DNA of 56,620 nucleotides. Source: Synechococcus sp. CS-1330. GTDB taxonomy: Bacteria > Cyanobacteriota > Cyanobacteriia > PCC-6307 > Cyanobiaceae. The notes below the pieces were generated by a model. That model saw only the letters and a list, made by a program, of their open reading frames with translations. It did not search any database and was not told where the DNA came from. How positions within the stretch are numbered: the first letter of the stretch is position 1; each line of letters begins with the position of its first letter. Shown here piece after piece: positions 6,720-9,882 of the stretch. Both the position numbers and the translations under genes were made by a program. The DNA is taken from NCBI GenBank assembly GCA_025128025.1, contig JAHLYR010000026.1, positions 1-56,620 on the forward strand. The letters are read 5' to 3'.

Positions 6720-6771
6720 CGCAAACTCGGTGCCAGCGACTCTCCATGCTCGTTCATCGGTAGGCGGCAGG

Positions 6772-7785
6772 ATGGTGATGTTCGCAAATGGACGGGGATT
6801 GCAACTCCATTCCGCCCCGCCCTTAACAGGAGCCCAAGGGCCAGCAACGGCCTTCCCGCCGCTGCAACGGGGACCCCTGACAACCCTGCAGGTGAACCTC
6901 GGTTACCGCTGTAACCAGGCCTGCAGCCACTGCCACGTCAACGCTGGACCATCCCGCACCGAAATGATGGATCCGGCCACCCTGGCCCTAATCCCGCCGG
7001 TTTTGGCGGCTCGTCAGCTGAGCTGCCTCGACCTCACCGGTGGAGCGCCGGAGCTCCACCCCCAGTTCAGGGAGCTTGTGGTGGCTGCCCGCCAGCTTGG
7101 CGTCGAGGTGCTCGATCGCTGCAACCTCACGATTCTGTCGGAACCCGGCCAAGATGATTTGGCTCGCTTTTTGGCGGATCAGGGCGTCACGGTGGTGGCC
7201 TCCCTACCCTGCTACGCCGCCGAAAACGTTGATCGCCAGAGAGGCAGCGGCGTGTTTGAGCGGAGCATCGAGGCTCTACGCCAACTCAATGCCCTTGGCT
7301 ACGGCCAGCCAGGCAGCGGCCTAGAGCTGCAGCTCGTTTACAACCCCCAGGGGCCGGAGCTACCCCCTCCCCAAGCCCAGCTGGAGGCCGACTACCGCCG
7401 GGTGCTCGCCGCCGACTTCGGGGTGGTGTTCACCAGCCTCTACGCCCTTGCCAATATGCCCATCCAGCGTTTTGCCAGCTGGCTCCAAGCCCAGGGACAG
7501 CTGGAGGCCTACCAAGCCCTGTTGCAAAACAAGCACTGCGGCGCCAACCTCGAGCGGGTCATGTGTCGCTCCCTGATCAGTGTCGACTGGCAGGGCTGGC
7601 TTTATGACTGCGATTTCAACCAGCAGCTTGGCCTGAGCGCAGCTGACCGGCCCAGGCGCCATCTTCGCGAACTGCTGGGCTGGGATCCGCAGGGGGATGC
7701 GGTGGCAGTGGCAGATCATTGCTTTGGCTGCACCGCCGGAGGGGGCTCCAGCTGCGGCGGTGCCCTAAACCGCGCCGCGGGCTGA
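6772..7785 (+). CDS. arsS: ArsS-type radical SAM protein (arsenosugar biosynthesis family)
   Basis: The 337-residue protein has the radical SAM cluster motif CNQACSHC (Cys47, Cys51, Cys54) after a short leader ending LTTLQVNLGYR. This is the layout of the ArsS/DUF3641 family. A Cys-rich C-terminus (CDFNQ, then CFGCTAGGGSSCGG) probably binds a further iron-sulfur cluster. ArsS acts on methylated arsenic to make arsenosugar precursors. No arsM or ars transporter lies nearby, so the arsenic role rests on family resemblance. The frame is open to a GTG at 6730; the ATG at 6772, preceded by a purine-rich AGG, fits the family start better. Confidence 0.82.
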   Translation: MVMFANGRGLQLHSAPPLTGAQGPATAFPPLQRGPLTTLQVNLGYRCNQACSHCHVNAGPSRTEMMDPATLALIPPVLAARQLSCLDLTGGAPELHPQFRELVVAARQLGVEVLDRCNLTILSEPGQDDLARFLADQGVTVVASLPCYAAENVDRQRGSGVFERSIEALRQLNALGYGQPGSGLELQLVYNPQGPELPPPQAQLEADYRRVLAADFGVVFTSLYALANMPIQRFASWLQAQGQLEAYQALLQNKHCGANLERVMCRSLISVDWQGWLYDCDFNQQLGLSAADRPRRHLRELLGWDPQGDAVAVADHCFGCTAGGGSSCGGALNRAAG

Positions 7786-8905: not shown

Positions 8906-8919
8906 AGTACAGGCGTACT
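8906..8919 (+). promoter_or_regulatory. LexA-type (SOS) box upstream of the UmuD-like gene
   Basis: AGTAC-AGGC-GTACT is a perfect palindrome with the GTAC-N4-GTAC spacing of cyanobacterial LexA boxes. It lies 37 bp before the ATG of the UmuD-like gene, over the expected promoter. Both the position and the identity of the downstream gene support SOS control. The inner four bases differ slightly from the published degenerate consensus as I remember it. Confidence 0.72.
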
Positions 8920-8956
8920 AATTTTGCGTTAGTGTGGTGGCCTTCGGGGGATTGCG

Positions 8957-9478
8957 ATGGCGACCGATCTGATCTGGCTGGGTCCCTTGCAGCCAGCACA
9001 TCACGACCTCGAGCCCCTGCTCCTGCCCTTGGCGGGCGAAACCGTGGCCGCAGGCTTTCCCAGCCCTGCCGATGACTACATCGAGGCAACGATCGATCTA
9101 AATGGAGCCCTGATTCAGCGACCGAGCTCCACCTTTTTGATGCGGGTAGACGGCGATGCCATGCGCGGGGAGGGCATCCACCACAGCGATCTATTGGTGG
9201 TCGATCGCAGTGTGGGTCCCCGTTCGGGCTCCATCGTGGTCGCCGTGCACGAGGGGCGCTTTCTGCTGCGGCGACTGGAAGGGGCACCTGCCCAGTGGCG
9301 CCTGGTGGCCAGCGATGCCACTAGCCCAGCCATTGCCCTGCAAGGTGACGATCCCGACCTGCTGATCTGGGGCGTGGTGATCCATGCGGTGCATCACCTC
9401 TGGAGGCAATCGCCGCAATCGCGAGTCCGAGGAAGCGCTTTTCAGCCTTCACCAGAAGCCTTTGGAATAAAGCCATAG
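8957..9478 (+). CDS. UmuD-like S24-fold protein with both catalytic residues replaced
   Basis: The 173 residues align along the length of E. coli UmuD. The cleavage-site region VAAGFPSPADDY is kept (Ala32-Gly33 at the scissile position), followed by IDLNGALIQ, DLLVVDRS and the C-terminal WGVVIHAV. The catalytic serine segment GDSM of UmuD reads GDAM here (Ala68, codon GCC at 9158-9160). The general-base lysine is Arg105, in LLRRL instead of VKKL. UmuD self-cleaves in the SOS response and joins UmuC in DNA polymerase V. This copy should not self-cleave. A LexA-type box precedes it, but no umuC follows; the next genes are on the opposite strand. The reading frame is intact. Confidence 0.85.
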   Translation: MATDLIWLGPLQPAHHDLEPLLLPLAGETVAAGFPSPADDYIEATIDLNGALIQRPSSTFLMRVDGDAMRGEGIHHSDLLVVDRSVGPRSGSIVVAVHEGRFLLRRLEGAPAQWRLVASDATSPAIALQGDDPDLLIWGVVIHAVHHLWRQSPQSRVRGSAFQPSPEAFGIKP

Positions 9479-9562
9479 GCCTAGCAATCCCACTGGCACA
9501 AACACTGCGCCAAGGATCTGCAACTTGATGGTGCGGGCAGATGGCTGGTTCTGACGAGGCAT
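9449..9562 (-). CDS. Very small single-span membrane protein (37 aa)
   Basis: The predicted product has a basic, polar N-terminus (MPRQNQPSARTIK) followed by one hydrophobic span rich in Val, Leu and Gly, and a short end containing SKGFW. This is a typical layout for small cyanobacterial membrane proteins. I chose the internal ATG at 9562, because the longer frame from 9631 adds a leader without membrane character. Its 3' end overlaps the UmuD-like gene by 30 bp in convergent orientation. No Shine-Dalgarno is visible, so the call rests on composition. Confidence 0.45.
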   Translation of the reverse strand: MPRQNQPSARTIKLQILGAVFVPVGLLGLWLYSKGFW

Positions 9563-9567
9563 GGGGA

Positions 9568-9882
9568 TCAGGCTGAAGGGGAGAACAAAATCGGGCGATA
9601 GGTGGGCCGAGCGGAGGGCGAAAGGCTCCACTTCACCCGGCAGGTGAAGGTGGCGTATTCACCTTTGATGGCAGTTGATACCCGCATGGCCGTAGCGGTT
9701 GCATCGGCTGGCATGCGGTATTGGGCCTGATTGCAGGAGTCCACTTCCGAGACGTCCGAGCTGTATTCAACGGTGCCGCTGGTGGGCGCGGCCTTGGCCT
9801 CTGCCTGGGCTGCGCAGGGAGCAAGCAAAGAAGCGGTGGTATACAGGGCCAGCAGACAGGGAAAGGCAGCAATGCGGCTCAT
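9568..9882 (-). CDS. Small secreted protein of unknown function (104 aa)
   Basis: A clear signal peptide (residues 1-28, with LLAPCAAQAEA around the likely cleavage site) precedes about 75 mature residues. Two Cys in the mature part (in VDSCNQ and TFTCRVKW) could form a disulfide. I recognise no family. The gene sits between small genes on the minus strand and could share a transcript with the 37-residue membrane protein downstream. Confidence 0.6.
   Translation of the reverse strand: MSRIAAFPCLLALYTTASLLAPCAAQAEAKAAPTSGTVEYSSDVSEVDSCNQAQYRMPADATATAMRVSTAIKGEYATFTCRVKWSLSPSARPTYRPILFSPSA

Follow-up and report, generated by a model that had tools for sequence, protein, structure and literature searches.

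Cleavage of UmuD gates error-prone DNA synthesis. Escherichia coli UmuD has its own Ser-Lys dyad, and when a single gene provides both enzyme and substrate it is hard to tell cutting in cis from cutting in trans, or to tell whether the two UmuD' subunits have different roles. UmuD-UmuD' heterodimers are preferentially formed in E. coli, and an arm-shortened UmuD (Delta18) shows no appreciable self-cutting but, given RecA:ssDNA, is efficient at cutting UmuD S60A in trans (PMC5342242). In a published model of Pol V the tail of UmuC lies on one UmuD' at S36, T71, K73, and E69 (S60, T95, K97, and E93 of UmuD in our own renumbering) and the arm of the second UmuD' enters UmuC; arm-less UmuD' is reported there to dimerise yet to fail in mutagenesis (PMC11791011). 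The PPB2 duplicates of PolB2 mutasomes likewise comprise two accessory-subunit copies with an N-terminal motif in just one, although these are proteins other than UmuD and the accessible text does not mention proteolysis (PMC11791011). For Cyanobium gracile PCC 6307 a duplicated umuD is given as a gene count, the accessible text mentioning neither dyad loss nor complementary roles (PMC5101192), and it is perhaps the gene pair described below. In the accessible text of the open-licence PMC literature, neither a split UmuD nor one lacking the dyad was found described, in agreement with the original prediction that a cyanobacterial pseudoprotease of this family was undescribed, yet dyad-defective UmuDs of another type are readily found in Chitinophagaceae and other cyanobacteria. 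The novelty would lie in a UmuD system that has its enzyme and its substrate encoded by different genes.

The window analysed here is a stretch of 56,620 nucleotides from Synechococcus sp. CS-1330, contig C43 of a 2.5-Mb genome (G000) that is 99.9% complete. A forward-strand open reading frame at 8957-9478, with an ATG start and a Shine-Dalgarno-like GGGGGA upstream of it (8946-8951, +, read off the sequence), encodes a 173-amino acid UmuD homologue that scores 122.2 bits against NCBIfam PRK10276 (NF007621, the Pol V autoproteolytic subunit; cut-off 110) and 76.8 bits against Pfam Peptidase_S24 (cut-off 23.3). Alignment to E. coli UmuD places the scissile bond at Ala32-Gly33 (9050-9055, +), opposite Cys24-Gly25, so that an N-terminal arm of residues 1-32 (8957-9052, +; residues 1-24 of E. 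coli UmuD) is predicted to be removed on cleavage. The putative substrate segment from P10 to P1, LPLAGETVAA (9023-9052, +), is marked out by column conservation among 34 genes of the same type, and P1' is Gly in all 34. The arm and the Ala-Gly bond are both present (VAAGFPSPADDY) and the catalytic dyad is not, with Ala68 (GCC, 9158-9160, +) at the position of Ser60 and Arg105 (CGG, 9269-9271, +) at that of Lys97, just as the original prediction had read them. Since the dyad is missing, RecA-stimulated self-cleavage is expected to be absent. We label this protein UmuD-S, for substrate chain.

UmuD-S does not fit the neighbouring families. The LexA repressor model TIGR00498 gives 55.4 bits, far under its cut-off of 110.95, and Pfam found no DNA-binding domain in the protein, in which merely 32 residues precede the cleavage site. 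The HumD model NF051876 gives 77.9 bits against a cut-off of 120, and the arm is present. UmuDAb proteins are defined by an extra N-terminal DNA-binding region (PMC8565304), and the 32 residues ahead of the site hold no further Pfam domain. AlphaFold modelling of the single chain gave low confidence (mean pLDDT 60.9, with residues 23-46 below 50) and the model backs the core fold only; its best Foldseek matches are 1umu, 1ay9, and 8gmt. Elsewhere in the window, a Radical SAM protein with DUF3641 lies at 6730-7785 (+), and a small reverse-strand protein (IKLQILGAVFVP...) at 9449-9631 (-) adjoins the UmuD-S gene and is present at 23 of the 35 UmuD-S loci scanned, one of them fetched twice, across genera.

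Five S24 matches occur in the genome: LexA with its Ser-Lys intact, UmuD-S, a third small type present twice, and a second UmuD that we label UmuD-P, for protease. UmuD-P (L003, contig C56) is 126 amino acids long and keeps Ser and Lys, has neither the Ala-Gly site nor the GFPSPADDY arm, and its gene shares 4 bases with the start of umuC. This umuC is the only PF00817 polymerase in the genome, which bears out the earlier statement that no umuC follows the UmuD-S gene. The description of UmuD-S as stand-alone, on the other hand, was wrong, because UmuD-P sits ahead of umuC in the same genome; a genome search for umuC and an active umuD thus returns one umuC, elsewhere, together with a UmuD that is arm-less and dyad-intact, as we propose for a split UmuD. 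The phage P1 protein HumD resembles UmuD-P in having no removable arm and in keeping Ser and Lys by alignment; unlike UmuD-P, it has the mature arm, its sequence beginning MGFPSPAADY. To our knowledge P1 HumD has no full-length partner.

The distribution of the two genes was followed in 16 genomes of the genus, searched with the domain model, and in 300 of the family, searched with the window protein, 264 of which matched at 1e-5 (G169, G180, and G298 were searched with the window protein alone and gave one match each). S24 sequences were read from 72 Cyanobiaceae genomes and sorted by cleavage site and dyad; the counts omit the second fetch of the G095 locus as well as G300 and G301. UmuD-S accounts for 34 genes in 33 genomes (G008 has two), every one of them with Ala60, Arg97, and the cleavage segment. 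Because all 34 carry the same Ala and Arg, sequencing error at the two dyad codons, which had been raised as a way for the observation to fail, is excluded, and no orthologue with an intact Ser or Lys appears within the group. UmuD-P is found in 30 of the 33 genomes, with Ser and Lys in 30/30 and the cleavage segment in 0/30; the three genomes without it are drafts that are 62, 77, and 89% complete. Ordinary UmuD, with segment and dyad on one chain, is found in the remaining 39 genomes, none of which has UmuD-S (in 32 of them the full-length second match was assumed to be LexA, its sequence unread). An extra dyad-intact fragment at a contig end in one ordinary genome, G217, was not counted as UmuD-P.

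The two states alternate within the window's own genus, where 12 genomes are split and 4 ordinary. Exactly one PF00817 gene is present in 31 of the other 32 UmuD-S genomes and none in a 62%-complete draft. At five loci of genus g47 (L055, L059, L061-L063) UmuD-P and umuC follow the UmuD-S gene at a short distance, separated from it by small frames on the reverse strand.

A perfect match to AGTACN4GTACT (AGTACAGGCGTACT, 8906-8919) lies 37 bp 5' of the UmuD-S start codon; the published cyanobacterial LexA consensus is AGTACWNWTGTACT (PMC3091678). Boxes with at most 2 mismatches stand upstream of 29/34 UmuD-S, 26/30 UmuD-P, and 37/39 ordinary UmuD genes, compared with a mean best of about 3.8 mismatches in shuffled sequence and at least 3 in all 36 downstream control stretches of the UmuD-S set, two non-family rows included. 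The scan set gene starts by rule and may miss boxes, as for the G100 UmuD-P, which scored 4 mismatches and has a perfect box visible by eye. Both genes are probably under LexA control. Perfect matches occur in only five places in the 2.5-Mb genome, the one at 8906-8919 included, and not every one is a real site, because one falls inside a peptidyl-tRNA hydrolase gene (PF01195). Another lies just 5' of dprA (PF02481; L293, G000:C58:11638-11651), a hint that DNA uptake might be tied to the SOS response in this genome.

These complementary losses point to a natural split UmuD, in which UmuD-S would be substrate and arm donor and would be cut in trans by UmuD-P, and we regard this as the probable explanation. 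The ordinary self-cutting UmuD would have been replaced in this lineage by two proteins, both probably LexA-controlled, one retaining the cleavable arm and no catalytic residues and the other the Ser-Lys dyad and no arm. After DNA damage UmuD-S and UmuD-P would be made and would pair as a heterodimer; on RecA-ssDNA the active site of UmuD-P would cleave Ala32-Gly33 of UmuD-S; and the cleaved heterodimer would serve UmuC, UmuD-S giving the GFPSPADDY arm to the polymerase while the UmuC tail is bound by its partner UmuD-P. The likeness to E. coli UmuD lies in family, cleavage segment, and, probably, LexA-type control, and the difference is that the dyad, missing from UmuD-S, sits in a second gene. 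A closer counterpart is the engineered pair of UmuD S60A and Delta18, likewise a dead full-length substrate with an arm-less active chain (PMC5342242), although that pair is a laboratory construct and the cyanobacterial one is natural, has replacements at both Ser and Lys, and is only proposed to undergo cutting in trans.

The division of labour may extend to the polymerase. Since UmuD-P has Ser60, Thr95, and Lys97 without the arm, and UmuD-S the arm without Ser60 and Lys97, the two seats of the UmuD' dimer may each belong to a different gene; if the unequal seats of Pol V are filled by different genes, activation would need both chains and cleavage would occur in trans only. This fuller proposal, a two-gene Pol V switch in Cyanobiaceae built on an obligate heterodimer in which one chain is enzyme and holder of the UmuC tail and the other is substrate and donor of the polymerase arm, is put forward tentatively, at something close to an even chance. 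With enzyme and substrate seemingly in separate genes, the questions of cis versus trans cutting and of subunit roles can be addressed directly through mutations in either chain alone, and the pair would, if the reading is true, exemplify a self-processing protease evolving into an enzyme and its substrate.

Conservation of the cleavage site carries much of the case for cutting in trans. P8 is Leu in 33/34 UmuD-S, P7 Ala in 32/34, P5 Glu in 34/34, P3 Val in 31/34, and P1 Ala in 32/34 (identical segments were merged in this alignment, taking the 39 ordinary sequences to 38), and pN/pS over P10-P1 is 0.26, near the 0.25 of the rest of the protein, against 0.86 in the 10 alignable arm columns before P10. 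UmuD-S thus keeps the P side, which is absent from a mature UmuD', and this favours trans-cleavage. So does the way P1 Ala follows the partner. All 31 UmuD-S that have a UmuD-P partner have Ala at P1. It is Thr in G073 and G123, where umuC stands without UmuD-P, and Ala in G037, a 62% draft in which neither partner nor umuC was found. In G073 and G123 (L194, L204) umuC has a box-like sequence (2 mismatches) and no UmuD ahead of it, with repetitive sequence at that place; both are drafts and close kin, and a UmuD-P copy elsewhere in the genome is possible.

Dyad-defective UmuDs of Chitinophagaceae provide the comparison. A UmuD relative occurs in 120 of 195 genomes of that family, and 50 loci (L213-L242 and L271-L290) were read, the 30 best matches to a dyad-less query and 20 picked from lower ranks. 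Ser, Lys, or both are missing at 46 of the 50, which is not a rate because the loci were selected by similarity to a dyad-less query. Most have Ala60/Arg97 and most have the arm region, as in UmuD-S. They differ from it at P1, which is Thr in 38, Asn in 2, Ser in 2, and Met in 4 of the 46, and never Ala or Cys; at the 4 loci with Ser and Lys, P1 is Ala in 3 and Thr in 1. The P1 residue appears to track the presence of an active chain, although the independent events behind this are few: a single lineage that lost the partner and, for the most part, a single clade of Chitinophagaceae.

The same comparison bears on the most durable alternative, that UmuD-S is never cut and acts as a permanent full-length UmuD with UmuD-P, either as a checkpoint subunit or as a tether bringing UmuD-P to ClpXP. 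E. coli offers precedents, since its UmuD bears the ClpX signal in the arm and brings its partner for degradation, and the S60A form of UmuD perturbs contact between alpha and beta in the replicase (PMC5342242). UmuD-S is retained in G073 and G123 with no protease chain ahead of umuC, for which reason it may have some role when uncut, and Thr-P1 dyad-defective UmuDs are maintained in Chitinophagaceae, where the copy in Gynurincola sits ahead of umuC in a genome with no second UmuD. Permanent non-cleavage leaves unexplained, however, why Ala-Gly is fixed in UmuD-S that have an active partner and not in the dyad-defective Chitinophagaceae proteins, and why arm-less UmuD-P keeps its dyad in 30/30 genomes, and we judge it unlikely. 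The protein had been predicted to be non-cleaving and repurposed, perhaps as a dimerising partner or a decoy: non-cleaving appears right for self-cleavage and not for cleavage in trans, to which the conserved substrate side and P1 Ala point, and dimerising partner comes close to the split UmuD that we favour.

A less likely alternative, and in our view an improbable one, divides the labour on UmuC and dispenses with proteolysis: Ser60, Thr95, and Lys97 of UmuD-P would hold the UmuC C-terminus, and the arm of UmuD-S would serve the polymerase cleft. The contacts of the UmuC C-terminus in the published model are indeed S60, T95, K97, and E93 in UmuD numbering, and the dyad pocket may be kept also for holding the UmuC tail (PMC11791011). 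UmuC C-termini in Cyanobiaceae (L003, L183-L212, L251-L270) mostly end in V-x-A, plus 0-1 residues, like P3-P1 of the UmuD arm, and such a tail is perhaps a product mimic sitting in the UmuD' active site. V-x-A-like tails occur in both split and ordinary states; the UmuC of G073 and of G123 ends VDAAG and that of G100 has an extended tail, too few to conclude from. Against a role of the dyad in UmuC binding alone, ten UmuD-like genes that have Met at P1 and lie directly 5' of umuC manage without an intact dyad; moreover, without cleavage the 32 extra residues would stay attached to the arm, and conservation extends to the P side.

Those ten belong to a set of 12 bacterial UmuDs with Met at P1 (L331-L342), 8 from other cyanobacteria and 4 from Chitinophagaceae, all of which lack one or both dyad residues; they are called arm-less on the strength of that Met, 7 having no other in-frame upstream start and 5 having one. 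They were perhaps born as UmuD'. The loci of other cyanobacteria were hand-picked from a set, Cyanobiaceae included, in which 78 of 194 genomes matched. Phage and plasmid searches gave 69 phage records and at least 5000 plasmid entries, from which 8 sequences were read: four ordinary with Ser and Lys, the HumD proteins of P1 and D6 with both residues by alignment, and two dyad-less arm-less proteins from Pantoea phage G19 and Aeromonas phage pAEv1818. UmuD-P aside, 14 of the 17 arm-less UmuDs read have lost one or both dyad residues (the 12 Met-P1 genes and the two from G19 and pAEv1818), 10 of the 14 directly 5' of umuC. The three that keep Ser and Lys, with no dead partner known, are P1 HumD, D6 HumD, and a gene in G526 (L356) directly 5' of umuC-like pieces in two frames, in a genome that also has an ordinary Cys-Gly UmuD. 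In UmuD-P, by contrast, S60, M61, F94, T95, and K97 are invariant in 30/30, among 25 invariant columns of 92 in the core. That a protease site is retained in a chain with no bond for it to cut would be explained most simply by a substrate elsewhere, and UmuD-S fits.

Still other combinations were met with. G660 and G516 (L348, L357), both outside Cyanobiaceae, have UmuD-like frames with Leu60/Lys97 and a kept Ala-Gly, no active partner being seen, which counts against the split reading. G595 has a Pro60/Arg97 UmuD (L347) with Ala-Gly intact alongside two dyad-intact UmuDs (L345, L346), with no umuC within the 3.2-kb stretch around L347, and may be a case in which a split UmuD arose a second time.

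That UmuD-S could act as a decoy for LexA or some other S24 protein, or regulate one of them, with no link to Pol V, is very improbable. In the window genome the gene does not adjoin umuC, and a separate LexA box precedes it, but UmuD-S together with UmuD-P and umuC replaces ordinary UmuD and adjoins them in genus g47, and the missing DNA-binding domain and low LexA score speak against this reading; nothing found favours the LexA decoy that had been suggested.

Decay of a duplicate umuD, for which the loss of both catalytic residues could be cited, is the least credible alternative and is rejected, as 34 genes across 33 genomes are alike, with fixed residues, promoter box, and neighbours preserved across genera, broken copies across most relatives, which would have favoured decay, were not seen, and median pairwise dN/dS is 0.17 (13 sequences, 74 pairs, within the genus), below the 0.28 of ordinary UmuD (39 sequences, within the family). 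UmuD-S is under purifying selection, in keeping with the original prediction of a repurposed protein and not a decaying gene, and relaxed selection is not what the ratio indicates. The corresponding medians are 0.29 for UmuD-P and 0.09 for LexA (within the genus), with dN/dS and pN/pS alike computed on stop-to-stop frames.

In a tree of 70 rows, which took in 15 of the 34 UmuD-S, 14 of the 39 ordinary UmuDs, 35 of the 50 Chitinophagaceae loci, and other rows, UmuD-S forms one clade (100/97) within a Cyanobiaceae UmuD clade (95/90). In a first tree, with fewer rows, UmuD-P, entered with its core only, clusters with ordinary UmuD at a poorly resolved fork (84/79). From these placements UmuD-S looks like a diverged duplicate that arose within Cyanobiaceae, and UmuD-P is likely the ordinary gene ahead of umuC that has lost its arm, its descent from ordinary umuD not being firm. 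That first tree had also placed the rows of Gynurincola and of Melainabacteria with the window group (99/84, on long branches). Dyad loss shared by descent with Chitinophagaceae was rejected, the larger tree setting the window group apart from the main Chitinophagaceae clade; because most Chitinophagaceae rows fall in that separate clade, the losses in the two families look convergent.

The third UmuD-like type is arm-less and dyad-less, with Gly or Arg at position 60 and Arg at 97. The two copies in the window genome (G000:C41:3388-3657, L004 and L089; G000:C17:2312-2575, L005 and L090) have Gly60/Arg97 and no cleavage site, and with relatives L081-L088, L179, and L181 the type amounts to 12 rows in 9 genomes, at most two per genome. 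It clustered with the window type in the first tree. A small ORF (...GAPVLVVTKSG...) recurs upstream of it at some loci, and a LexA-type box at one mismatch stands ahead of 10 of the 11 scanned, one row having had no anchor.
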